NCBI RefSeq assembly: GCF_900168295.1
Contig: NZ_FVZL01000004.1
Span: 124,001 to 188,000 of the forward strand
DNA from: Arthrobacter sp. P2b
GTDB lineage: Bacteria; Actinomycetota; Actinomycetes; Actinomycetales; Micrococcaceae
Reading direction: 5' to 3'
Length of the DNA: 64,000 nucleotides
The notes beneath the pieces were generated by a model. It was not told where the DNA came from. It saw only the letters and a list, made by a program, of their open reading frames with translations, and did no database searches. Position 1 is the stretch's first letter. Each line of letters starts with the position of its first letter. The position numbers were made by a program, and so were the translations under genes. Shown here in pieces: positions 2,852 through 30,714 of the stretch.

Positions 2852-3784
2852 GTGGAGCTTCAGCAGCTGCACAGCCGGATCACCGGCTGGTTCGCCGAAA
2901 CCGCCCGCGACCTGCCCTGGCGCGAACCCGCATGCTCCGCGTGGGGCGTGCTGGTCAGCGAGATCATGCTGCAGCAGACGCCCGTGGTCCGGGTGCTTCC
3001 GGTCTGGCAGGAGTGGCTCAAACGCTGGCCCACCCCCGCAGGGCTGGCAGGTGAACCTGCCGGTGAGGCGGTGCGTTCATGGGGCAGGCTGGGATATCCC
3101 CGCCGCGCCCTTCGCCTGCACGCGGCGGCAGTTGCCATCGTCCAGGACCATGGAGGGAAGGTCCCTGACACCTACGCGGAACTGCTGGCTCTTCCCGGCG
3201 TGGGAAGTTACACGGCCGCAGCCGTGGCGGCGTTCGCCTACGGCCGCCGGGAGACGGTGGTGGACACCAACATCCGCCGCGTCCACGCACGGCTGGTCTC
3301 CGGCGTCGCGCTTCCCGCCCCGGCGCTGACCGCAGCGGAGATGCGCCTGGCCGCCTCCCTTTTGCCGGACGACGACGGCACGTCCGTGCGCTGGAACGCC
3401 GCGGTCATGGAGCTGGGCGCCTTGGTATGCACCGCGCGTGCGCCCAAATGTTCCACCTGCCCTGTGAGGGACTCCTGTGCGTGGCTCGCGGCAGGTGAGC
3501 CGCCGCCGTCGTACGTCCCCAAAGGCCAGGCCTGGCACGGCACTGACCGCCAGGTCCGCGGCGCCGTGATAGCCGTGCTGCGCCTGGCTGAAATCCCTGT
3601 GCCGGCCGAGATGTTCACCCATGAGCCCGCCGACCTGGGCTTTGCTCCCGAAGGAATCGGCGTGCCGCTGGCAGCCCTGCACCGGCTGAACCCGCCGCCC
3701 GAGCAGCTGGAACGTTCCCTGTCGGGGCTGCTCGCGGACGGACTCGCCGAAATGCACGACGGCGGATACCGGCTTCCTGCCTGA
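2852..3784 (+). CDS. mutY: A/G-specific adenine glycosylase MutY, short actinobacterial form
   Basis: 310 residues. Removes adenine mispaired with 8-oxoguanine in base-excision repair. The glycosylase fold shows catalytic Glu37 in SEIMLQQT, helix-hairpin-helix LPGVGSYTAAAV (114-125) and catalytic Asp138 in VVDTNIRR. The [4Fe-4S] loop is C193-x6-C200-x2-C203-x5-C209. The C-terminal NUDIX-like 8-oxoG domain of longer MutY proteins is largely absent, as in many actinobacterial members. GTG 2852 was chosen because AGGGAAG at 2841-2847 is well placed; the frame extends to a TTG at 2741, but that part has no homology to the family. Confidence 0.9.
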   Translation: MELQQLHSRITGWFAETARDLPWREPACSAWGVLVSEIMLQQTPVVRVLPVWQEWLKRWPTPAGLAGEPAGEAVRSWGRLGYPRRALRLHAAAVAIVQDHGGKVPDTYAELLALPGVGSYTAAAVAAFAYGRRETVVDTNIRRVHARLVSGVALPAPALTAAEMRLAASLLPDDDGTSVRWNAAVMELGALVCTARAPKCSTCPVRDSCAWLAAGEPPPSYVPKGQAWHGTDRQVRGAVIAVLRLAEIPVPAEMFTHEPADLGFAPEGIGVPLAALHRLNPPPEQLERSLSGLLADGLAEMHDGGYRLPA

Positions 3785-19424: not shown

Positions 19425-20321
19425 GTGAAAGAACAGGTCATTGCAACGCACGACGGCGGCCGGCTGGCCTTATACAGTTACGGCACCGTTGATGCCCCGG
19501 GCGAACGCCGCGTGGTGCTGATCGGCGGAGCGTTCCTGACCGCACTGATCTACCGGCCGTTTTCGGTGGCGCTGGCGAAGGGCCTGGGCGACGGCTGGGC
19601 GGTGGACGTGTATGACCGCCGGGGCCGCGGCAGCTCGTCGGAGCAGCCCGCCGACTACTCGATGGCCACCGAGATCGCCGACGTGCGGGCTGTCCTGGAT
19701 GCCACGGGTGCCCGGAACATCCTGGGCCACAGCCTGGGCGGGGCGGTTGCCCTGAACGCCGTCCAGGAGTTCACCGGAACCTCCTACGTGCCGGACAAGC
19801 TCGCGGTGTACGACGCCGCGGTGAACATCGACGGCAGCATCGACACCGCCTGGCTGGACGGGTTCGAGGACGCCGTCAACAACGGCAAGGTGGGCCACGC
19901 ACTGGCGCACATGAAGAAGGCCACCAGCCCCGGCACCGCCCTGGCAAGGATTCCCGAGCCTGTCCTGGCCGGGCTGATGGCGCTGGTCTCGAACACCAAA
20001 ATCAACAGGATGTTCCGGGACGTCATGCCCAGCGGAGTGGGCGAGCTGCGCGCCGCCTACAACGAGGCCGACCATGCCAGGGACTTCAGCGTGCTGCCCG
20101 CCTCGACCCATTTCATGGCCGGCGGCAAGAGCCCCAGCTACTACAAGGTCACGGCAGAGCGGCTGCACGCCGCCGTCCCCGGCAGCACCTATGAGCTCTC
20201 CCCCAAGGGCTTCCACGGCTCCATCCCCGCGGCCGTCAATGAACTCGTCACCGATATCTCGGAGTATTTCAAGGGCTCACGAGCTCCTTCCGGTCCGCCA
20301 GCCAGTCACCAAAGCGCGTGA
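19425..20321 (+). CDS. Alpha/beta hydrolase (paralogue of the gene at 29.9 kb)
   Basis: 298 residues. The nucleophile elbow is GHSLGGAVAL and the cap region is helical; the His is probably in SPKGFHGS near the C-terminus. It shares DGG-x-L-x-L, RRGRGSSS-x-QP-x-DY, GHS-x-GGAVAL and KLAVYD with the hydrolase at 29878-30714. The substrate is unknown. GTG 19425 has TACGAT (19413-19418) exactly six bases upstream and no ribosome site, so a leaderless start is likely. Its 3' end overlaps the convergent atzF gene by 53 bases. Confidence 0.85.
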   Translation: MKEQVIATHDGGRLALYSYGTVDAPGERRVVLIGGAFLTALIYRPFSVALAKGLGDGWAVDVYDRRGRGSSSEQPADYSMATEIADVRAVLDATGARNILGHSLGGAVALNAVQEFTGTSYVPDKLAVYDAAVNIDGSIDTAWLDGFEDAVNNGKVGHALAHMKKATSPGTALARIPEPVLAGLMALVSNTKINRMFRDVMPSGVGELRAAYNEADHARDFSVLPASTHFMAGGKSPSYYKVTAERLHAAVPGSTYELSPKGFHGSIPAAVNELVTDISEYFKGSRAPSGPPASHQSA

Positions 20322-22053
20322 TGTCCTCGCCGCCGGCGGCGGCCACGGCGTCGCAGGCGAACCCGACAGCGGTTGACCCGTCGGAGAGCTGCACGGATCC
20401 GAGCAGCATGGGCTCGGGAAGGGACGCCAGGAACGAGCCCAGCCCCGCAGGCGACAGAAGCCACCGTTCACCCACGAGCTCCGCGCCGTCGTCGGACCGG
20501 TAGACGCCCGGCTTCGGCGGCACGGTGTCCAGGGACACCATGCGGTAGCGGGCGGCCGTCCGGACGGGACCGTCCCAGACCGCCCCGAGTTCCTCCAGCT
20601 GCGGAGCCAGCGGCTGGCCCTTCCGGTGTGCACCGACCACAACCAGCGGGACCGCCACAGCACCGGCGGCCACCGGCCACGGAACGGACGACGACGGCTG
20701 GCCGGCTGCCGCCGTCACTGCCGGTACTGCGCCGGCAGCAAAGAGTTCCGGCGCGGCGGGGGTTGTTTCGATCCTGCGGGCGATGTCAGCGGCGACTGCG
20801 TCGTCAAAGGTCCGGCCCACCACTGTCAGACCGAACTGGGAATTGTCCACCACGCCTGCCGGGACGGCCACCGCGCAGAGGTCGAACAGGTTGCAGAAGT
20901 TCGTGTAGGTGCCCATAAGGGAGTTGACGCCCACAGGGTTGGCGGCCACCTCGTCCAGCGTGGGGTGGAACGGCGCCGTGGGCACCAGCAGGGCGTCGAA
21001 GCCTTCCAGCCCTGCCATCGCCTTGCGTTTCAGTTCTTCCAGTTTGGCGGTGTCCGCAACGTAGCGGTGGGCAGGCAACGTGCCGGCCGCCCGGACGATT
21101 CCACCCACCGTGGGGTCGATGCCCGCCTGCCCGTCCGTGCCGGCGTCGGCCGTTTCGATGTAGCTGCCCACGGCGGCATGGCGCTCGGCCACCAGGGCTC
21201 CGTCGTACAGCAGCCGCGCCGCGTCCAGGAAGGCGTCGAATTCGATGGGCCGGACGTCCACGCCCGAGTCGCGGAGCCGGTCCACCTGGCGTCCGAACTC
21301 TGCTGCCCAGGAGTCTGGAAGGGCGGGCAGGCTGGCGGGGTAGGCCACGCTCGGCCTCGCCGGTGCTGCCAGCCGGATATCGCTGGGCCAGGTCCGCGCG
21401 CTGCCGGCCATCACCCCCATCGCAAGCTCCGCCGTGGACAGCTGGCGGGCAAAGATGGTGACGGCGTCCCACGACCGGCAGGCAGGCACTACGCCGGTGG
21501 TGGACACAACGTGCAGCGTCGGCTTGATTCCCACGATCCCTTGCAGCCCCGCCGGCACCCGGCCTGATCCTGCAGTGTCCGTTCCGATGGCGATGTCCAC
21601 CAGGCCCAGCGCCACTGCCACGGCGGAGCCGGAGCTGGAGCCGCCGGAGATGAACTCCGGGCGGCGGGAGTCCCGGACAGCACCATACGGGCTGCGTGCG
21701 CCGACGAGCCCGGTGGCGAACTGGTCCAGGTTGGTGGCACCGAGGACCAGTGCGCCGGCGGCCCGGAGCCGGGCCACCGCGTCGGCGTCCTTCTCCGGCA
21801 GGTAGGCGAAGCCGGGGCACGCCGCCGTCGTGGGGATGCCCGCCACGTCCACGTTGTTCTTGACGGCCAGCAGGAGCCCGGCGAGCGGCAGGTCGGCGCC
21901 GCCCGCTACAGCCGCGTCGATGCCAGCTGCCTCGGCCAGCAAATCAGCCTCACCGCGGAGGGTGATCCAGATTTCGGGGCGGTCCACTGCTTCGACGGCG
22001 GCGAGCGCCGCCTTGACCCGCGCTGTGGCCGTACCGGTGGCGGGGTTGCTCAT
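20269..22053 (-). CDS. atzF: Allophanate hydrolase
   Basis: 594 residues. Hydrolyses allophanate to two ammonia and CO2, the last step of biotin-dependent urea/guanidine breakdown. Residues 1-450 are an amidase-signature domain with catalytic Lys65 (VKNNVDV), the cis-Ser motif SGGSSSGSA (136-144) and nucleophile Ser163 in GTDTAGSGRVPAG. Residues about 470-594 form the C-terminal domain specific to allophanate hydrolases, which handles the N-carboxy intermediate. Its ATG overlaps the carboxylase stop by four bases. Confidence 0.94.
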   Translation of the reverse strand: MSNPATGTATARVKAALAAVEAVDRPEIWITLRGEADLLAEAAGIDAAVAGGADLPLAGLLLAVKNNVDVAGIPTTAACPGFAYLPEKDADAVARLRAAGALVLGATNLDQFATGLVGARSPYGAVRDSRRPEFISGGSSSGSAVAVALGLVDIAIGTDTAGSGRVPAGLQGIVGIKPTLHVVSTTGVVPACRSWDAVTIFARQLSTAELAMGVMAGSARTWPSDIRLAAPARPSVAYPASLPALPDSWAAEFGRQVDRLRDSGVDVRPIEFDAFLDAARLLYDGALVAERHAAVGSYIETADAGTDGQAGIDPTVGGIVRAAGTLPAHRYVADTAKLEELKRKAMAGLEGFDALLVPTAPFHPTLDEVAANPVGVNSLMGTYTNFCNLFDLCAVAVPAGVVDNSQFGLTVVGRTFDDAVAADIARRIETTPAAPELFAAGAVPAVTAAAGQPSSSVPWPVAAGAVAVPLVVVGAHRKGQPLAPQLEELGAVWDGPVRTAARYRMVSLDTVPPKPGVYRSDDGAELVGERWLLSPAGLGSFLASLPEPMLLGSVQLSDGSTAVGFACDAVAAAGGEDITRFGDWLADRKELVSP

Positions 22054-25000
22054 ACTGCTGCCTCTTCCAGTTCCGGGGCATCCACGTCCGCAGGCTCCAC
22101 GTCATCGCTGCCGAGGACCACCACGGCCTCGCCCGCCACCACCTGTGAACCGGCGGCCGGCAGGACGCGCAGCACCACGCCGTCGCAGGGCGCTTCCAGC
22201 ACCGTTTCCATCTTCATGGCCTCGAGGGAAACCAGCGGCTGGCCCTTGGTAACCCGGTCCCCCACTGCAACATCAACCTTCCAGACGCTCGCAGCAAACG
22301 GCGCGGACACAAGGGAACCGCCGTCGGGAACCACTATGTCGTCTGCCGCGGGGGCCACGACGGCGGCCAGCGCCTCCGCGCGGTCGAACTCGCCGGCGTC
22401 GGCCCATGCCTGCCGTTCCACCGCAAAAGCCGCGCCCTGCGTCTCGCGGAATGCCGCGATGGACTCACGGTTTTCCTCAAGGAACAGCTCATGCTCGGCC
22501 AGGGAGAAGGTGCCCTCCTCGATTTCGACGCCGCGGCCCCTGCCGGCGGCCATGTCGGCACGCAGGTCAAGGAGTTCCTCTGGGCTGACCGGGTACCACG
22601 AGATCCGGTCGAAGAACCGCAGCAGCCAGGGTGAGCCCGCCTCAAAGGGAGCCGAATCCGCGTAGCGCGACCACACCTGGGTGGTGCGGCCGACGAACTG
22701 GTAGCCGCCCGGCCCTTCCATGCCGTAAATGCACATGTAGGCCCCGCCGATCCCCACCGCGTTCTCCGGCGTCCAGGTGCGGGCCGGGTTGTACTTGGTG
22801 GTTACCAGCCGGTGCCGCGGATCCAGCGGCGTGGCCACCGGGGCGCCGAGGTAGACATCCCCGAGGCCCAGGACCAGGTATTCGGCATTGAAGACGGTGT
22901 CGAAGACGTCGTTGACGGAGTCCAGTCCGTTGATCCGGCGGATGAACTCGATATTCCAGGGGCACCAGGGGGCGTCATCACGGACGCCTGCCATGTAGCG
23001 CTGAATGGCTTCCCTCGTTGCCGGATCGTCCCAGGACAGCGGCAGCCGGACGGTGCGGCTGGGAACTACCAGTTCGGAGCTCGGGGGCAGTGCCGCCTCA
23101 ACCTCCTGGACGAGGCCCAGCAGCCGCTTGGTGGCCAGGACCGACGGGTCCACCTTGATCTGGAGGGAGCGGATGCCGGGGGTGAGGTCCACAATTCCGG
23201 GCACGCGGAGCTGTTCGAGGTGCTGGTGCAGGGCGTGCACCCTGGCACGCAGCCCCAGGTCCAGGACCATCTCGCCGTATTCCACGAGCAGGTTGTCATC
23301 GCCGGAGCGGCGGTAGGTGACTGCCGGCCGTCCGGCGCCTTCAGGCACCCGGCCAAGCACGCCGTCGTCGCCGTCTCCCCGCCCGGCGCGCCTGCCTGCC
23401 GGCGCTGCTGCAGTCTTTGTTGGCAGGTGCGCTGACAGGTTGCCTGACAGCTCTGCCGACCAGCCGGCGTCACCCGGCAAAACCAATTGCCGGCCGGGCC
23501 CGAGGTCCCCGGCGGACGGTGCCTGGCTGACTTCGATGGGAACGAATCGGACCTTGTCCCCCGGGCGGAGCTGGCCGAGCTTCCAGCGGTCGGCCGTCAC
23601 CACGGTGACGGGGCAGACGAAACCGCCCAGACTGGGGCCGTCCGGGCCGAGCAGGATGGGGGTGTCGCCGGTGAAGTCGAGGGCGCCCACGGAGTAGGCG
23701 GTGTCGTGGATGTTGGACGGGTGCAGGCCGGCCTCGCCGCCGTCGGTCCTTGCCCAGCGGGGTTTGGGACCGGTCAGCCGGACGCCGGTGCGGGCGGAGT
23801 TGAAGTGCACCTCGTACTCGGCGGCGTACAGTTCCTCGATGTCTTCGCGCTGGAAGAATTCCGGGGCGCCGTGCGGGCCTTCGGCCACGGCGAGTTCCCA
23901 GGTTGAGGTCAGGGCGGGCCGGCTGTCGAGCGGGACGGCGAGCGTCTCGGGTTCTCCGGCGGCGGCCGGCTTCACGGTGCGGAGGACGTCGCCGGCGCGG
24001 AGGACGCGTCCGGCGTGTCCGCCGAACTGCCCGAGCGTGAAGGTGGAGGCGCTGCCAAGGTACTCCGGAATGTCCAGGCCGCCCTGGAACAGGATGTACC
24101 CCCGCAGCCCGTGCCCTGCTGCGGTGCCGACGTCGAGCGTGCCGCCTGCGGGCACTGTCACCGGCGCCCATGCTGGAACCTCCGTCCCGTCAACCGTCAC
24201 TGTTACCTCGGCGCCGGTGACGCAGAGGGTGGTGGCGTGGGTGAAGGTCAGGCTGGGCCCGGTCATGGTGAATTCCAGGCCGGGGGCGCCTTCGGGGTTG
24301 CCGAGCGCGGTGTTGCCGATCCGGAAGGACAGGTCATCCATGGGGCCGCTCGGCGGGACGCCGATCTGCCACAGGCCGGTCCTGCCGGGCCAGTCCTGCA
24401 CGCTGGTCTGCAGGCCGGGGCGGTCCACGGTGATCCGGGGTTCCGGATCGCCCACGGAGTCCAGGGTGCTGGTGGAGTGCTCGACGCTGCGGACCACGTC
24501 CAGTCCCGCCACGGCGCGGAGCATTCCAAGGTTGGTTTCGATGCCGTCGATCCGGATTCCGGCGAGTGCTGCGGCCAGCCGGTCGAAGGCCTCAGCCCGC
24601 GTTGCTGCCGAGGTGATGATTTTTCCCAGGAGGGGATCGTAGTTGGTGGACACCTCGGTGCCGGTTTCCACCCAGGCGTCCACGCGGACATCCTCCGCAG
24701 CGGGGTATACGGCGTTGGTGACGGTTCCGGCGCTGGGCTGGAAGCCGCGGGCCGGATCCTCGGCGTACACGCGTGCCTCCACCGCATTGCCGGAAACGGG
24801 CAGGCTGTCCGGGATGCCGGCGAGTACGCCCTGGGCTTCCGCGCCGCCCTGCGCCAGCCGGAGCATCCACTCCACGAGGTCCACCCCGGTGACGGCCTCG
24901 GTGACGGGGTGCTCCACCTGGAGCCGGGCATTGACCTCCAGGAAGGACGCTTCGCGGCGGGAGGAGTCGTAGACGAACTCGACCGTTCCTGCGGAGCGGT

Positions 25001-25805
25001 AGTTGAGCGAGGCGCACAGTGCGCGGGAGCTGCGGTGCAGTTCTTCGCGCAGCTCCTCGGGCAGGTCGGGGGCCGGCGCTTCCTCAAGAACCTTCTGGTG
25101 GCGGCGCTGCAGGGAGCAGTCGCGGTCGCCGAGGCTGACCACCCGGCCCTCACCATCGCCGAAAACCTGGACTTCGATGTGCCGGGCGTTTTCGACGTAG
25201 CGTTCCGCGAAGACGCCCGCGGTGCCGAAGCTGGCCCCGGCCAGGCGGGCAACCCGGGGGAAGCTCTCCACCAGTTCGGCCTCGGTGCGGCAGACCGTCA
25301 TGCCGATGCCGCCACCGCCGCCGGTGGCCTTGAGCATCAGGGGGAAGCCGATGGCGGCACTTGCCTCTACAGCCTCAGCCACGTCCGCCAGCAGTCCGGA
25401 TCCGGCGATCATGGGGACGCCGGCGGCGCGGGCGGCGTCGCGTGCCGTGTGCTTGGTGCCGAAGATGCGCAGCTGTTCCGAGGTGGGGCCAACAAAGACC
25501 AGTCCTGCTGCTTCCACGGCTTCGGCGAAAGCGGCGTCCTCGGACAGGAACCCGTATCCGGGGTGGATCGCTCCTGCCCCGGTGGACTTCGCCGCTGCCA
25601 GGAGCGCATCCACCCGGAGGTAGGACTCCTTGGCAGGCGCCGGGCCGAGGAGCACCGCTTCGTCTGCCAGGCGGACGTGGCGGGCGCCGCGGTCCGCTTC
25701 GGAGAATACGGCGACGGTCCGCAAGCCGAGTTTCTTGGCTGATTCGATGATGCGGCAGGCGATTTCGCCGCGGTTGGCGATCAGCAGGGTGTCGAAAGTA
25801 TTCAC
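22050..25805 (-). CDS. Biotin-dependent urea carboxylase family enzyme, probably guanidine carboxylase
   Basis: 1251 residues. The N-terminal biotin carboxylase (1 to about 455) begins DTLLIANRGEIACRII and has the Gly-rich ATP loop KATGGGGGIGMTV. The carboxyltransferase region follows as an AHS2/KipA half (about 460-770, PGLQTSVQDWPGRTG) and an AHS1/KipI half (about 830-1040). The C-terminal biotinyl domain has biotin-Lys1198 in EAMKMETV. It transfers carboxyl from bicarbonate to urea or guanidine. Urea carboxylases linked to DUF1989 gene pairs have been reassigned as guanidine carboxylases, so guanidine is the better prediction here. GTG start overlaps the upstream DUF1989 stop (GTGA). A protein of this size leaves only tight gene junctions in the operon. 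Confidence 0.92.
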   Translation of the reverse strand: MNTFDTLLIANRGEIACRIIESAKKLGLRTVAVFSEADRGARHVRLADEAVLLGPAPAKESYLRVDALLAAAKSTGAGAIHPGYGFLSEDAAFAEAVEAAGLVFVGPTSEQLRIFGTKHTARDAARAAGVPMIAGSGLLADVAEAVEASAAIGFPLMLKATGGGGGIGMTVCRTEAELVESFPRVARLAGASFGTAGVFAERYVENARHIEVQVFGDGEGRVVSLGDRDCSLQRRHQKVLEEAPAPDLPEELREELHRSSRALCASLNYRSAGTVEFVYDSSRREASFLEVNARLQVEHPVTEAVTGVDLVEWMLRLAQGGAEAQGVLAGIPDSLPVSGNAVEARVYAEDPARGFQPSAGTVTNAVYPAAEDVRVDAWVETGTEVSTNYDPLLGKIITSAATRAEAFDRLAAALAGIRIDGIETNLGMLRAVAGLDVVRSVEHSTSTLDSVGDPEPRITVDRPGLQTSVQDWPGRTGLWQIGVPPSGPMDDLSFRIGNTALGNPEGAPGLEFTMTGPSLTFTHATTLCVTGAEVTVTVDGTEVPAWAPVTVPAGGTLDVGTAAGHGLRGYILFQGGLDIPEYLGSASTFTLGQFGGHAGRVLRAGDVLRTVKPAAAGEPETLAVPLDSRPALTSTWELAVAEGPHGAPEFFQREDIEELYAAEYEVHFNSARTGVRLTGPKPRWARTDGGEAGLHPSNIHDTAYSVGALDFTGDTPILLGPDGPSLGGFVCPVTVVTADRWKLGQLRPGDKVRFVPIEVSQAPSAGDLGPGRQLVLPGDAGWSAELSGNLSAHLPTKTAAAPAGRRAGRGDGDDGVLGRVPEGAGRPAVTYRRSGDDNLLVEYGEMVLDLGLRARVHALHQHLEQLRVPGIVDLTPGIRSLQIKVDPSVLATKRLLGLVQEVEAALPPSSELVVPSRTVRLPLSWDDPATREAIQRYMAGVRDDAPWCPWNIEFIRRINGLDSVNDVFDTVFNAEYLVLGLGDVYLGAPVATPLDPRHRLVTTKYNPARTWTPENAVGIGGAYMCIYGMEGPGGYQFVGRTTQVWSRYADSAPFEAGSPWLLRFFDRISWYPVSPEELLDLRADMAAGRGRGVEIEEGTFSLAEHELFLEENRESIAAFRETQGAAFAVERQAWADAGEFDRAEALAAVVAPAADDIVVPDGGSLVSAPFAASVWKVDVAVGDRVTKGQPLVSLEAMKMETVLEAPCDGVVLRVLPAAGSQVVAGEAVVVLGSDDVEPADVDAPELEEAAV

Positions 25806-26479
25806 AGCGCTGCCTCCGGCCGGGTGACGATCATGCGGACTGGGGTGGGGTTGAAGCCGTTGCAGGGGTTGTTGACCTGCGGGCAGTTGGAGACGAGGAC
25901 CAGGGTGTCCACCTCGGCCCGCAGCGCCACACGCTTGCCGGGGGCCGACAGTCCATCAACGATGCCCAGGGCACCGTCCGGGTCCACGGGAACGTTCATG
26001 AACCAGTTGATGTTGGACACCAGGTCCCGCTTTCCCAGGCCCCAGCGGGAGCCTTCGATGAGGAAGTTTTCAACGCAGGCGTGCTGTTCGCGGGTGTGCT
26101 GGCCGTAGCGGAGGGTATTGGATTCCTGCGAGCAGGCCCCGCCTATGGTGTCGTGCACGCCCACTTCGTCTGCCACCACGGTCATCAGCGGAGCTCCGGT
26201 GTCTGCGCGAAGCACCGAAGCCGTGGTCAGGACGATCGACTGCTGCCGGGCGATGGTGACGGGCGCCGAGTAGCGGACGGACGTGTCTTCAGCGGCGTAC
26301 AGCAGGCAGTCCACGGCCTGGTTGCCTTCCAGGTCCACGATGGTCAGCACGTCGCCGGCTGCCACTACCGCTGACCAGGGGCCTCTGGCTTCCACGAATT
26401 CGTCGAGGACCACGGCGCCGGGCACCAGGGCGGTTTCGCCCGCGGCCGGGATGGGTTTGGTGTCAATGGCGGTGTTCAT
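25802..26479 (-). CDS. DUF1989 urea carboxylase-associated protein, probable carboxyguanidine deiminase subunit
   Basis: 225 residues. The DUF1989 fold shows GNQAVDCLLY, VHDTIGGACSQESNTLRYG and the closing SNCPQVNNPCNGFNPTPVRM. Conserved Cys and His (C115, C212, C218) could bind a metal. In guanidine-degrading bacteria two DUF1989 proteins form a heteromeric deiminase converting carboxyguanidine to allophanate; this would be one half. Its ATG overlaps the preceding gene's stop (ATGA) and its stop overlaps the carboxylase start (GTGA). Confidence 0.85.
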   Translation of the reverse strand: MNTAIDTKPIPAAGETALVPGAVVLDEFVEARGPWSAVVAAGDVLTIVDLEGNQAVDCLLYAAEDTSVRYSAPVTIARQQSIVLTTASVLRADTGAPLMTVVADEVGVHDTIGGACSQESNTLRYGQHTREQHACVENFLIEGSRWGLGKRDLVSNINWFMNVPVDPDGALGIVDGLSAPGKRVALRAEVDTLVLVSNCPQVNNPCNGFNPTPVRMIVTRPEAAL

Positions 26480-27351
26480 CGGGCGTTCCTTGCGGTGAGG
26501 TCGTGTTCGGTGTTGCGGAGTGCCTGCAGGTGTTCGGGCGCCAGGGGGCCGGCGAGAGTGCCCGCCTCGAGCGCGGCGAGGTCCTGCGGCGCATGCCAGG
26601 CGACGACGTCGACGGCGGTTCCGGTGAAGCCTTCGCGGGGATCCAGGGGGTGGGCGGTGTTGGCGAGCACCAGCACCGCGTCCATCTGGAGCAGGAATTC
26701 GACGGCGGCGCCCGGACCGGCACTTCCGGTGAACGTGATGGTGCCGGCGGGGTCCACGTTGATGCCCTTGAAGAGTGTCAGCGACGGTGCCACGTCGCGG
26801 GGGCCGAGCCCGGTTTTGAGGGCTCCGAGAGTGAGGAGTTCGCGGGCTGCCGGGGACGCGCTGTGGGCCGTTCCGGCACCGTATCGCTCGGTGTTTCCGC
26901 TGAGTGTGGTGGCGCCGGTCAGGGCATCGTGGCGGGATGAGGTGTCAGCCACGATGGTTGCCATCAGGCGGCCGGCGTCGGACAGCAGCGGGTGGCCCGT
27001 CCCGGGGTAGGCCTGCCACGGGACCTTGACGGTGTCCGCGGTGTTGAGGCGTTCGTGAAGGGCCCCGGCCCGGTACAGGAGGGTGTGCACGCAGGCATCA
27101 CCGGCGGTGTCCGTGAGCCGGACGCGGGTGCCGCGGGCAAGCGTCATGGTGGTGTACCGGCCGAAGGCCAGGGACTCGACCCAAGTGGGGAAAACGCCGT
27201 CGGGCAGTTCCTCAGTGAAGCGCGCGGGGGCGGAAGCGGCCGGTACGAAGCGCATGGTGTCCGCGGTCCGGTCGTGCTGTTCCCGGGCGTGGGCACGGGC
27301 GCCGGCGGTGGTGGCTGTGCCGGTTGCTGGTGTTTCGATGGTCTGTGTCAT
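26476..27351 (-). CDS. DUF1989 urea carboxylase-associated protein, second subunit
   Basis: 291 residues, longer than its neighbour because of an N-terminal extension (about 1-55) and a C-terminal tail. The core motifs are RGTRVRLTDTAGDACVHTLLY, TSSRHDALTGATTLSGNTERYG and LTLFKGINVDPAG. It belongs to the same family as the downstream gene but is clearly diverged, fitting the two-subunit carboxyguanidine deiminase arrangement. 54 bases separate it from the permease stop, and it overlaps the next gene by four bases. Confidence 0.84.
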   Translation of the reverse strand: MTQTIETPATGTATTAGARAHAREQHDRTADTMRFVPAASAPARFTEELPDGVFPTWVESLAFGRYTTMTLARGTRVRLTDTAGDACVHTLLYRAGALHERLNTADTVKVPWQAYPGTGHPLLSDAGRLMATIVADTSSRHDALTGATTLSGNTERYGAGTAHSASPAARELLTLGALKTGLGPRDVAPSLTLFKGINVDPAGTITFTGSAGPGAAVEFLLQMDAVLVLANTAHPLDPREGFTGTAVDVVAWHAPQDLAALEAGTLAGPLAPEHLQALRNTEHDLTARNAR

Positions 27352-27405
27352 GTCAGTCCTGTTGTTCTAAGGCTTGGGTTCTAAGGCTTGGTTGCTTGGC
27401 GGTTG

Positions 27406-28908
27406 TTATGCGCTGGCTGCCAGGTTCCGGCGGCGGACCCAGAGGCCCAGGAGCAGGACCGCCGTCACCATCAGCGGCGCCGAGTAGAGGAGGTTCCCGT
27501 TCTCGCCGGAGGGGTCGTAGACCTCGGGCCGGGGCCAGGCAAGGTTGACCACCATCACGGCGCCGTAGAGGACGGCGAGGATGTTGACGGGCAGCCCCCA
27601 GCGGCCGAGCGAGAAGAGGCCCGCGGGCATGGTCTGCCCCACCCGGTTCCAGTCGCCGCGGAGGCGGTTCACCAGCTGCGGCACGGTGACCAGGAGGTAG
27701 GCAAGGTAGACCATCACGATGCACACGCTGCACAAGGTGGTGAACAGGGCGGCGTTGCCAACGTTGATGGCCAGCACACCCACGGCCAGTGCGCCGATGA
27801 CGATGGATGGCCACATGGGCGTGCCCCGGGTGGGGTGGACGGAGGAGAGCAGCGCGGAGGCGGGGAGTTTCCCGTCCCTAGCCATCGAGAACACGAGGCG
27901 GGAACCGGCGGTCTGGATCGCCAGGGTGCAGACGAAGATGGCGATGGCCACGTCCACCAGCAGGACCTTGCCCCAGAACGTGCCCAGCACGGCGGTGAGG
28001 ACGTAGGGAAGACCTTCGGTGGCGAGCCGGCCGTCGTCGAGGCTGGGTGCAGCCATCAGGGCGGTGATGATCATCAGTGCGCCGCCGATGCCGGAGATCA
28101 GCAGCGCGGAGAGGATGGTGCGGGGTGCGGTGCGCCGCGGGTCCTTGGTCTCTTCGGACAGTTCGCCGGCGGAGTTGAAGCCCACCATGACGTAGGCGGC
28201 CATCAGACCGGAAACCAGGAAGGCTCCCACTGCGCCGAGCTCTGAGTTTTGCAGCACCGTGGTGTCCGCGACGACGTCCGGACCGCGCTGGGCAGCGCTG
28301 ATCAGCGCGAGGATCACGGCCACGACGCCGACGATCTCGCACGTGACACCGACGGAGTTCACGTGCGCCATGAGCTTGACGCCCAGCGAGTTGATGATGG
28401 TGGTGGCCACCAGGAGCACGGCCCCGAGGACCACCGCGTTGGCGGCACCGCTGACCGTGTTGAGGGCGGGATCGCCGCCCACAATCTGGAAGCCGTCCCA
28501 GAGCTGGGGCAGCACCACCTGCAGGGCGATGGCGGCGGCCGCGGCAGTGACCACCTGGGCGATGGCCATGAACCAGCCCGCGAACCAGCCGACACTTTCA
28601 CCGCCCACGCGCCGGGCCCACTGGTACACGGCGCCGGACAAGGGGTAGCGGGCGGCCAGTTCGGCGAAGTTCAGGGCCACCAGGAGCTGGCCCACCAGGA
28701 CAACCGGCCAGGTCCAAAAGAACGCAGGCCCAGCGAACGAGTAGCCGAACGCGAAAAGCTGGAAGATGGTGGTCAGGATCGAAACGAAGGAGAAGCCGGC
28801 GGCAAAGGAAGCGTAGCGGCCGAGCTTTCGGTGAAGGGTGGGCTCATAGCCAAGGGACGTCAGGTCCGCATCGTCCTGGTGGACGGTGGGGAGAACGGTT
28901 GATGTCAT
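27406..28908 (-). CDS. APC-superfamily permease of the urea/guanidine operon
   Basis: 500 residues with about twelve transmembrane segments. N-terminal FSFVSILTTIFQLFAFGY and AELAARYPLSGAVYQWARRVGGE in helix 3 are typical of the amino acid/choline transporter branch, as is VMVGFNSAGELSEETKDPRRTAPRTI in the middle. Permeases of this branch are regularly first in urea-carboxylase operons and are thought to import the amine substrate. Guanidine, urea or another amine is inferred from context only. GGAGA lies seven bases before the ATG. First gene of the operon, divergent from tetR. Confidence 0.9.
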   Translation of the reverse strand: MTSTVLPTVHQDDADLTSLGYEPTLHRKLGRYASFAAGFSFVSILTTIFQLFAFGYSFAGPAFFWTWPVVLVGQLLVALNFAELAARYPLSGAVYQWARRVGGESVGWFAGWFMAIAQVVTAAAAAIALQVVLPQLWDGFQIVGGDPALNTVSGAANAVVLGAVLLVATTIINSLGVKLMAHVNSVGVTCEIVGVVAVILALISAAQRGPDVVADTTVLQNSELGAVGAFLVSGLMAAYVMVGFNSAGELSEETKDPRRTAPRTILSALLISGIGGALMIITALMAAPSLDDGRLATEGLPYVLTAVLGTFWGKVLLVDVAIAIFVCTLAIQTAGSRLVFSMARDGKLPASALLSSVHPTRGTPMWPSIVIGALAVGVLAINVGNAALFTTLCSVCIVMVYLAYLLVTVPQLVNRLRGDWNRVGQTMPAGLFSLGRWGLPVNILAVLYGAVMVVNLAWPRPEVYDPSGENGNLLYSAPLMVTAVLLLGLWVRRRNLAASA

Positions 28909-29134
28909 CGGAATCTCCGGGGCTGGAATGGCAGGGGGGATAAAACCTCCCGGCAGCGCAGCGCTCGGCCGAAGGCTGCTGATTACCGGTCAATTGATAG
29001 TTTTCCAGCGCCATGTCCCCAAACAGTTTCACCTCTGTAAAAGGCACATAGACATCTTGTTTCGGGTTCATTTCCGTCCCCTCACATTGCCGTTCCGCGG
29101 TTTTCGGGCCGGACGGGAATGCAAGAATGATGCG
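28909..29134. promoter_or_regulatory. Divergent control region of the carboxylase operon and tetR
   Basis: 226 bases between divergent starts. It contains the 8-bp palindrome TCAATTGA (28990-28997) inside CTATCAATTGACCGG (minus strand), a candidate TetR site, and a GCAGC...GCTGC stem nearer the permease. I did not find the conserved core of the ykkC guanidine-I riboswitch or of guanidine-II or -III. Control by the adjacent TetR protein is therefore the simpler inference. Confidence 0.45.
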
Positions 29135-29806
29135 GTGACTTCAGCCGGACCGGGACGCCCTCGCCACCAACAGCCCTCCCGCCCGGGGGCCACCGCCCGC
29201 GACGAAATCCTCGATGCGGCCGCCGAACTTTTCACCACCCACGGCTTCGCCAGCACCTCCACCCGGTCCATCGCGGACGCCGTGGGAATCCGGCAGTCCT
29301 CGCTCTACCACCACTTCAAGACGAAGGACGACATCCTCGAGGACCTGCTGGAGGGAACAGTGAGCGGCGGCTTGAAGTTCGCGCGGGCCGTCGCAGCCGA
29401 CACCACAGGTGAAGCTGCCGCCGGAAGCCGGCTTCACGCCGTCGCGCTTTACGACGGCACCCAGCTCTGCAGCGCCCGCTGGAACCTCGGAATCCTCTAC
29501 CACCTGCCCGAAGTCCGCACCGCACGCTTTGCCCGGTTCCTCGCGGACCGGCAGGAGCTGCGCGGCCTGTACGGGCGACTCGGCGCCGGCCTGTCCCCTT
29601 CCCGCGGCGACGGGCACCCGGAAGCCAGCGGCGGCGATTTCACGTTCCGCCTGGTCGAATCCCTGATCAGCCTCCGCGTGGACGGCATGGCCACCCCGGA
29701 ATCTCCACTGGAGGCCGCGGATGCGGGACTGATCCTCTGCGGGCTGGCCGGAGAACTGCCCGCCATCCGGGCGGAAAGCGCCGCGCTCATCTCGCGCCTC
29801 GCCTAG
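29135..29806 (+). CDS. TetR/AcrR family regulator divergent from the carboxylase operon
   Basis: 223 residues. The N-terminal HTH (about 20-66) reads ATARDEILDAAAELFTTHGFASTSTRSIADAVGIRQSSLYHHFKTKDDIL in pattern. The C-terminal ligand domain is unassigned. Divergence and proximity make it the likely repressor of the permease-DUF1989-carboxylase-atzF operon. In mycobacteria a TetR protein (AmtR) controls homologous urea-carboxylase genes, but I cannot show orthology. GTG 29135 was chosen as the first codon of the conserved part; an overlapping ATG is out of frame. Confidence 0.85.
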   Translation: MTSAGPGRPRHQQPSRPGATARDEILDAAAELFTTHGFASTSTRSIADAVGIRQSSLYHHFKTKDDILEDLLEGTVSGGLKFARAVAADTTGEAAAGSRLHAVALYDGTQLCSARWNLGILYHLPEVRTARFARFLADRQELRGLYGRLGAGLSPSRGDGHPEASGGDFTFRLVESLISLRVDGMATPESPLEAADAGLILCGLAGELPAIRAESAALISRLA

Positions 29807-29877: not shown

Positions 29878-30714
29878 ATGACGCGTGAGAACATCAGGAC
29901 CCCCGACGGCGGCACTCTGGAGCTCTTCTCCACCGGCACGGATATGGCTTCCGCCGGCTCCGGCGTGGTGATCGTCCCGCCATCCATGGTGACGGCAGCG
30001 GATTACACCAAGTTCGCGCAAAAGCTGAGCGCCGCCCTGGGCCGGCCCGTCCACACGTTCAACCGCCGCGGCCGCGGATCGTCGTCCCCCCAGCCGGAGG
30101 ACTACACGCTGGATGTGGATATCCGCGATTTGGACACGGTCATGAAACACACGTCCAGCACGGACGTGTTCGGCCATAGCTTCGGCGGCGCGGTGGCACT
30201 GCACGCGGCTCGGACGCTGCCGGTTGAGCGGCTGGCCGTGTACGACCCCGCGGTATCCGTGAACCACAGCGTAAAGGCGGAGTGGATCGCCGAATATGAG
30301 GCCGCGGCTGCCGCTGGCGATGACGACCGGGCCCTCGCCGTGATCCAGCGCGGGCTCGAGGAAGGTGGACCGTTCTCGTCCCGGATGCCGCTGTCCATGC
30401 TGACCCTCGCCAACAAGCTGACCGCCGGCACGTCAGAGGGCAAGCAGCAGAGGGAGCTGATGCGGACCGGCGTCCGGGAGATCAAGGCGATCATCGCCGC
30501 GGACATGCCGGCCGAGCCGTTCCTGGCGCTTCCGCTCGAAACGCTGATCGTGGTGGGCGAAAAGAGCCCGGCCTACTTCGGTGTGGCCTGCGGGCAGATC
30601 CATGACGTCCTCTCCGGCTCCAGCTACACCATCCTCCCCGGCTTCGGGCACGACGGCGCCATCAAGGCCCCGGACGTGCTGATCAAGGAACTCAGCGACT
30701 TCTACGCCGGCTGA
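29878..30714 (+). CDS. Alpha/beta hydrolase (paralogue of the gene at 19.4 kb)
   Basis: 278 residues. The nucleophile motif is GHSFGGAVAL and the probable His is in LPGFGHDGAIKAP. RRGRGSSSPQPEDY and LAVYDPAV match the hydrolase at 19425-20321. Substrate unknown. No ribosome site is seen, but TAGGCT (29866-29871) is exactly six bases before ATG 29878, a leaderless geometry. It lies 71 bases after tetR on the same strand and ends before a large perfect hairpin. Confidence 0.85.
   Translation: MTRENIRTPDGGTLELFSTGTDMASAGSGVVIVPPSMVTAADYTKFAQKLSAALGRPVHTFNRRGRGSSSPQPEDYTLDVDIRDLDTVMKHTSSTDVFGHSFGGAVALHAARTLPVERLAVYDPAVSVNHSVKAEWIAEYEAAAAAGDDDRALAVIQRGLEEGGPFSSRMPLSMLTLANKLTAGTSEGKQQRELMRTGVREIKAIIAADMPAEPFLALPLETLIVVGEKSPAYFGVACGQIHDVLSGSSYTILPGFGHDGAIKAPDVLIKELSDFYAG

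Follow-up and report, generated by a model that had tools for sequence, protein, structure and literature searches.

We report that a guanidine-utilisation operon, under predicted AmtR and GlnR control and without a guanidine riboswitch, is very probably encoded in a 64-kb stretch of the Arthrobacter sp. P2b genome, judging from sequence comparisons (contig NZ_FVZL01000004.1, positions 124,001 to 188,000; the whole stretch of 64,000 bp is referred to here as the window, and coordinates count from its first base). The operon encodes a permease, two DUF1989 proteins, a biotin-dependent carboxylase and an allophanate hydrolase, and faces a divergently transcribed gene for AmtR, a TetR-family repressor. 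The guanidine carboxylase pathway itself is established, and what is recognised in the window is a variant of it that differs in regulation. Novelty lies in the proposed link between AmtR and guanidine, which was not found in the literature searched (subscription papers and preprints were outside its scope).

Organization of the operon and its control region

The features are listed in order of coordinates; bit scores are followed by the model cut-off.

20269..22053, minus strand: allophanate hydrolase with amidase and AH_C domains (TIGR02713, 599.9 bits, cut-off 511.05; PF01425 and PF21986)
22050..25805, minus strand: predicted guanidine carboxylase, 1251 residues, GTG start (TIGR02712, 1766.1 bits, cut-off 1303.85; Asp710 and Asp983)
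25802..26479, minus strand: UAAP2, DUF1989, predicted other deiminase subunit (TIGR03424, 328.2 bits, cut-off 284.7)
26476..27351, minus strand: UAAP1, DUF1989, predicted carboxyguanidine deiminase subunit (TIGR03425, 251.8 bits, cut-off 205.95)
27406..28908, minus strand: first gene of the operon, an APC-family permease that probably imports guanidine (TIGR03428, 'permease, urea carboxylase system', 870.5 bits, cut-off 740.45)
28987..29000, no strand assigned: predicted AmtR operator CGGTC-AATT-GATAG, conserved in relatives and lying 78 bases ahead of the start of the permease gene
29026..29041, minus strand: predicted GlnR box TTTAC-AGAGGT-GAAAC, with the AC-n9-AC core of the published motif
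29135..29806, plus strand: AmtR, TetR-family repressor, divergent from the operon (best match in the PDB 5e57; GTG start chosen by conservation in relatives)

An earlier note on this locus had described a five-gene operon, with coordinates that proved exact and with 4-base overlaps at three of the four junctions, which are indeed present (26476-26479, 25802-25805 and 22050-22053). All five genes lie on the minus strand, and the fourth junction, from the permease to UAAP1, is a gap of 54 bases. The span it gave, 20269-28908, holds all five genes but leaves outside both the divergent regulator (29135-29806), which it had overlooked, and the control region (28909-29134).

The carboxylase contains biotin carboxylase, carboxyltransferase AB and CD, and biotin carrier domains, and is the one match above the TIGR02712 cut-off in the whole genome. 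Only two DUF1989 matches are present genome-wide, UAAP1 and UAAP2, and since each passes a different model, two distinct DUF1989 subunits adjoin the carboxylase. The subunits are told apart here by NCBIfam models, and in PMC11410670 CgdA and CgdB were assigned by clades of a DUF1989 tree. Among 111 homologues, Cys116, Cys135, Cys199 and Cys206 of UAAP2 are invariant and His109 is found in 108, and the conserved positions of UAAP1 include no Cys. Judged by its relatives, the host probably belongs to Arthrobacter/Pseudarthrobacter; with a limit of E 1e-250, the carboxylase model is matched in 56 of 150 genomes of the host genus.

In the proposed pathway the permease would import guanidine, both its substrate and the direction of transport being predicted; for ammonia oxidizers, too, guanidine uptake by an APC permease has been predicted (PMC11410670). 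The biotin enzyme would then use ATP and bicarbonate to convert guanidine into carboxyguanidine, which would be deiminated by the UAAP1/UAAP2 pair to allophanate and ammonia, and allophanate hydrolase would yield two more ammonia and CO2. AmtR would bind at 28987-29000 and repress the operon, and GlnR would bind at 29026-29041 and activate it when nitrogen is short. The enzyme set and both signature Asp residues are those of the guanidine carboxylase pathway described in Pseudomonas, Raoultella, Vreelandella and others (Gca, CgdA/CgdB, AtzF). The window differs in having an APC permease where those systems have an ABC importer, and in having AmtR and GlnR-like sites where they often have Guanidine-I or Guanidine-II riboswitches.

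Substrate residues and the DUF1989 pair

Asp is given as the mark of guanidine carboxylases and Asn as that of urea carboxylases in a review (PMC12186494), and the guanidine carboxylase positions are specified as Asp at K. lactis position 1584 and Asp replacing Asn at 1330 (PMC11410670). The earlier note had suggested aligning the substrate-selecting residues; when this was done the window enzyme showed the guanidine form, with Asp710 at the position of 1330 (GALDFTGDTP, versus GAINFTGDEP in K. lactis) rather than the Asn1330 of urea carboxylases, and Asp983 at the position of 1584. The urea carboxylases (uca/DUR1,2) of K. lactis, Klebsiella and Pantoea piersonii belong to the same family and share the Asp at 1584, but have Asn at 1330, and the two bacterial loci lack DUF1989 genes and have a urt transporter.

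The residue at 1330 could be read in 109 loci, the window included, at least 5 of which are second copies of the same genome. The DUF1989 pair accompanies Asp1330 in 98 of 98 of these loci, and in 106 of 106 when eight loci are included that were added later from the genomes with the nearest relatives of M. smegmatis AmtR. DUF1989 genes are present in none of the nine Asn1330 loci, two annotated ones of which (L136 and L141) adjoin urt urea-transporter genes; the pair is present in both Met1330 loci. Together with Asp710 and Asp983, these associations support the guanidine reading that the earlier note had put forward. Its further claim, that an older annotation as urea carboxylase would be wrong, holds in the sense that Asp-types and Asn-types alike pass the 'urea carboxylase' model TIGR02712 (the Asn-type enzyme of genome G467 scores 1698.6 bits), so that the name says nothing about the substrate. 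Because this curated equivalog model takes in guanidine-type enzymes, genes are misnamed, for example in annotated plasmid loci with UAAP1 and UAAP2.

A carboxyltransferase tree (midpoint-rooted and built by a quick method from 100 of 110 rows, 10 near-identical Arthrobacter rows having been dropped) has Asn types in two places, one comprising K. lactis, Klebsiella and Pantoea and the other an actinobacterial group among the Asp enzymes. Well-supported branches force at least two Asp/Asn changes, so residue and DUF1989 have stayed linked across more than a single lineage. In both tree groups the bacterial Asn loci have neither DUF1989 genes nor AmtR.

Loci L097-L103 encode actinobacterial Asn1330 carboxylases nested among the guanidine-type enzymes. 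The Met1330 enzymes of L122 (G366) and L123 (G308) form a third class outside the Asp/Asn rule; their loci have the DUF1989 pair and a Guanidine-I riboswitch, are without AmtR, and contain no biotin carboxylase.

AmtR accompanies the guanidine form of the carboxylase

The best PDB match of the window AmtR is M. smegmatis AmtR (5e57, E 4.6e-58, residues 20-224 of the 230 searched), with 55% identity over 200 aligned residues, followed by Corynebacterium glutamicum AmtR (5dxz, E 5.9e-33); the TetR DNA-binding domain PF00440 is present. Among the best 80 of 351 relatives, which were found with the AmtR query and hence are not a neutral sample, 64 loci have the DUF1989 pair within the examined flanks, and the 1330 residue, readable in 61, is Asp in all 61.

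Because that sample had been drawn with AmtR, a class survey of 296 genomes, the host's included, was added in which each protein was searched separately (carboxylase at E 1e-200 or better, AmtR at E 1e-30 or better). The carboxylase is found in 33 of these genomes and AmtR in 26. AmtR is present in 24 of the 25 genomes with an Asp-type enzyme versus none of the 8 whose enzymes are all of the Asn or Met type (Fisher p 6e-7 for Asp genomes against other carboxylase genomes, kinship being ignored), and the 25th Asp-type genome, G565, has a weaker AmtR-like gene (40%) beside its operon.

Three positions of the effector domain, Asp107, Glu126 and Glu175 in the window protein, are acidic in every row that has a residue there among 77 operon-linked AmtRs. 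The corresponding residues of the homologous C. glutamicum AmtR are Glu, Ile and Met, so that it lacks two of the three conserved acidic residues. Such an acidic trio suits a cationic ligand such as guanidinium, and we regard it as a candidate ligand site. In an AmtR tree (100 of 112 rows, the 12 near-identical rows L013-L024 having been dropped; midpoint root and no outgroup row) the group that contains M. smegmatis AmtR lies among the operon-linked AmtRs, and C. glutamicum AmtR forms a very long branch, for which the midpoint root does not give the direction of change.

Some mycobacteria also have a second AmtR paralogue away from the operon, which forms its own clade (L080, occurring with L053 in Mycolicibacterium litorale, L129 and L130).

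Conserved sites between amtR and the operon

An alignment of the region upstream of amtR from 28 Micrococcaceae sequences (two of which, L022 and L032, are without the operon in the examined DNA) contains two conserved blocks, the predicted operator at 28987-29000 and the predicted GlnR box at 29026-29041. The M. smegmatis AmtR motif is reported, in work of 2016, to be CTGTC-N4-GACAG, and the predicted site CGGTC-AATT-GATAG agrees with this consensus at 8 of its 10 fixed positions. The site at 28987-29000 is the sole fit to the operator pattern in the window. Of the 78 intergenic regions between AmtR and the operon, 76 contain the pattern, versus 0.4 expected from shuffles, a count that is partly circular as the pattern was refined on the regions where it was counted; its density is 10.8 per kb within these spaces versus 0.033 per kb elsewhere in the same loci. 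A cleaner test, given that refinement, comes from the eight later loci, each of which has exactly one match per 16 kb, just before the permease. Three of the nine Asn-type loci (L097, L099 and L100) hold one match somewhere in 15-19 kb.

The M. smegmatis GlnR consensus is Gn2AC-n6-GnAACA, with AC-n9-AC as the key pairs (PMC3662644). A loose GlnR-like pattern is present in 25 of 26 Micrococcaceae spaces versus 1.4 expected, and in 16 of the 18 spaces that fall neither in this group nor among L038-L088, a set considered below. It missed all eight M. smegmatis-like promoters, although on visual inspection each of them can be seen to contain the published form Gn2AC-n6-GAAACA.

Riboswitches

No guanidine riboswitch, nor any other Rfam riboswitch, was found in the window with all Rfam families at the gathering threshold, or at a relaxed threshold over 26400-29500. 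Genome-wide, RF00442 has no match, the other guanidine riboswitch families having been sought in the window only. Riboswitch control of the operon was rejected for these reasons. Guanidine-I riboswitches are present in 7 of 8 scanned proteobacterial Asp-type plasmid loci, and 6 of these 7 also have Guanidine-II; neither type was found in the seven AmtR-linked actinobacterial loci scanned. In a mixed set of seven loci, Guanidine-I is found in four, namely two Asp-type Bacillota loci and both Met-type loci, and no riboswitch was found in L131, L126 (Asp) or L136 (Asn). AmtR thus seems to take the place held elsewhere by a guanidine riboswitch. Two of the loci count against so simple a picture: L131, a proteobacterial Asp-type plasmid locus from Novosphingobium, has neither a riboswitch nor AmtR, and the Asp-type locus L126, which belongs to another class of the phylum, lacks a riboswitch and has an AmtR match of only 35%.

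Locus L140, on a plasmid of Serratia proteamaculans typed as conjugative, has two equal-scoring tandem Guanidine-I riboswitches (2547-2645 and 3616-3714) before its guanidine operon, which adjoins nifHDK.

The AmtR 'urea' regulon of M. smegmatis

The same gene set is described for the M. smegmatis operon msmeg_2184-2189, regulated by AmtR (msmeg_4300), and for a like-named 'urea' cluster of Arthrobacter aurescens TC1, AAur_0186-0192 (PMC4222082). That 2013 paper names the genes as urea carboxylase and unknown frames and finds AmtR to co-occur with the corresponding operon in the ten actinobacteria that it covered, which include A. aurescens. In M. smegmatis the DNA upstream of msmeg_2184 is bound by AmtR, operon expression rises when the DNA-binding part of AmtR is deleted, and GlnR drives the operon under nitrogen starvation (PMC4222082), binding the same promoter (PMC3662644). 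The msmeg names appear in literature of 2013-2015 and are read there as urea use; both systems were published as urea degradation, whereas we read the window operon as one for guanidine.

A search of 396 genomes of the genus did not turn up M. smegmatis itself, the best AmtR match being 94%, and the best 8 of 17 matching genomes, with AmtR 81-94% identical, were used as stand-ins. All eight have Asp1330, and their operons, ordered permease-UAAP1-UAAP2-carboxyltransferase-allophanate hydrolase, are preceded by the predicted operator in the same 5-N4-5 form as in the window. As all eight relatives are Asp-type with the DUF1989 pair and this operator, we infer that the regulon serves guanidine; what has been called the 'AmtR urea regulon' in M. 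smegmatis is probably one for guanidine, and its candidate inducers are guanidine and carboxyguanidine. Two differences from the window are that amtR lies elsewhere in the M. smegmatis genome rather than divergent and adjacent, and that only the carboxyltransferase part of the carboxylase, full length in the window, is matched in the nearest M. smegmatis relatives.

This carboxyltransferase-only match (query ~458-1140) is seen at L038, L053, L060, L071, L083, L085, L113-L119, L145-L152 and others, all belonging to Mycobacteriaceae, Nocardiaceae and Gordoniaceae. The examined DNA of 38 Asp-type loci has no biotin carboxylase or biotin carrier domain. Within the same clade, a biotin carboxylase gene with 42% identity lies ~5-10 kb away in four Mycolicibacter loci, and the eight M. 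smegmatis-like genomes have separate biotin carboxylase genes elsewhere. The carboxyltransferase-only enzyme may borrow its biotin subunit; nothing on such borrowing surfaced in the literature search.

Alternative explanations

Several observations weigh against a guanidine operon controlled in this way. AmtR occurs in 2 of the 263 class-survey genomes without the carboxylase, and 16 of the best 80 AmtR loci have no operon gene in the examined flanks, neither the DUF1989 pair nor the carboxyltransferase, some of them ending at a contig edge. The left half of the window operator is imperfect, and in near relatives that share this site its standing against shuffles is about 1 in 10 at best, so the weight of the operator comes from its conservation. 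The window GlnR box is without the first G and last A of the consensus, and the loose GlnR-like pattern is found in only 16 of the 35 spaces of L038-L088, which are mostly from Mycobacteriales. The permease could carry a cargo other than guanidine. The Asp/Asn rule, for its part, seems to rest on few assayed enzymes. We have taken it from the review PMC12186494 and from a methods section in PMC11410670.

We consider it most unlikely that this is a true urea carboxylase/allophanate hydrolase operon, in which the DUF1989 proteins would be accessory to urea use, as the names UAAP1 and UAAP2 imply. The enzyme does score well above the cut-off of the equivalog 'urea carboxylase', and Arthrobacter sp. 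Rue61a grows on urea and has a carboxylase pathway beside urease that was read as urea degradation (PMC3534580). Asp rather than Asn at 1330 argues otherwise, however, as do the nine Asn-type loci without DUF1989 and the urease already encoded in the host genome. Growth of M. smegmatis on urea was not seen although its operon rises under nitrogen starvation (PMC4222082), which is a weak point since ureases are present too. It is also improbable that the main substrate of the operon is a larger or substituted guanidine compound, such as methylguanidine, taken up by the permease, with guanidine only part of the diet. The importer is assigned to guanidine by prediction, the pathway has been extended to methylguanidine in Vreelandella (PMC12508155), and two nitroguanidine-degrading Arthrobacter strains are reported (PMC10508134), but no extra gene lies inside the operon, and the alpha/beta hydrolases that flank it are common to the nearest strains only.

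We tentatively propose, giving the idea close to but short of an even chance, that AmtR does in Actinobacteria, as a protein, what the guanidine riboswitch does elsewhere: it would be a repressor that lets go of its operator on binding guanidinium or carboxyguanidine through Asp107, Glu126 and Glu175. The M. smegmatis regulon would then be a guanidine regulon, and the PII-controlled Corynebacterium AmtR a derived form whose ligand site was lost. It is also possible, if somewhat doubtful, that AmtR has no small-molecule inducer and that control is exerted by competition with GlnR, by PII as in C. glutamicum, or by AmtR abundance. Ligand-independent binding of AmtR and no interaction with PII were reportedly described in 2016. 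C. glutamicum AmtR, a global nitrogen regulator, is released by PII (PMC4617892), an antisense RNA to amtR is reported, and M. smegmatis AmtR binding was unaffected by urea and amino acids (PMC4222082). An inducer is nevertheless suggested by the distribution of AmtR, which tracks the guanidine form of the carboxylase and not the urea form, and by the three acidic positions, two of them not acidic in C. glutamicum; guanidine, moreover, is not named among the effectors tested on M. smegmatis AmtR in the accessible text of PMC4222082. The proposal that guanidinium or carboxyguanidine is the inducer joins the guanidine carboxylase pathway, often riboswitch-controlled, with an actinobacterial regulon whose inducer goes unreported in the papers of 2013-2015. 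If true, it would explain the lack of a urea effect on M. smegmatis AmtR; it also means that a single compound is enough to test what the inducer is.

Neighbouring genes

A sigma-70 promoter and terminator scan of 20150-29200 gave 0 promoter-like sites and 3 terminator-like sites versus 4.6 expected, and is uninformative. The operon is flanked by two alpha/beta hydrolase genes on the plus strand, an open reading frame ending at 20321 and one at 29878-30714, which are paralogues 33% identical to each other. We considered these as core pathway parts and rejected them, as they are common to the nearest strains only: among the best 80 AmtR loci, 14 (L011-L024) have a match of at least 89% to the 29878-30714 hydrolase, and 12 have a match of at least 82% to the other, which in one case is partial. 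The open reading frame ending at 20321 and the allophanate hydrolase gene meet tail to tail, their 3′ ends overlapping by 53 bases.

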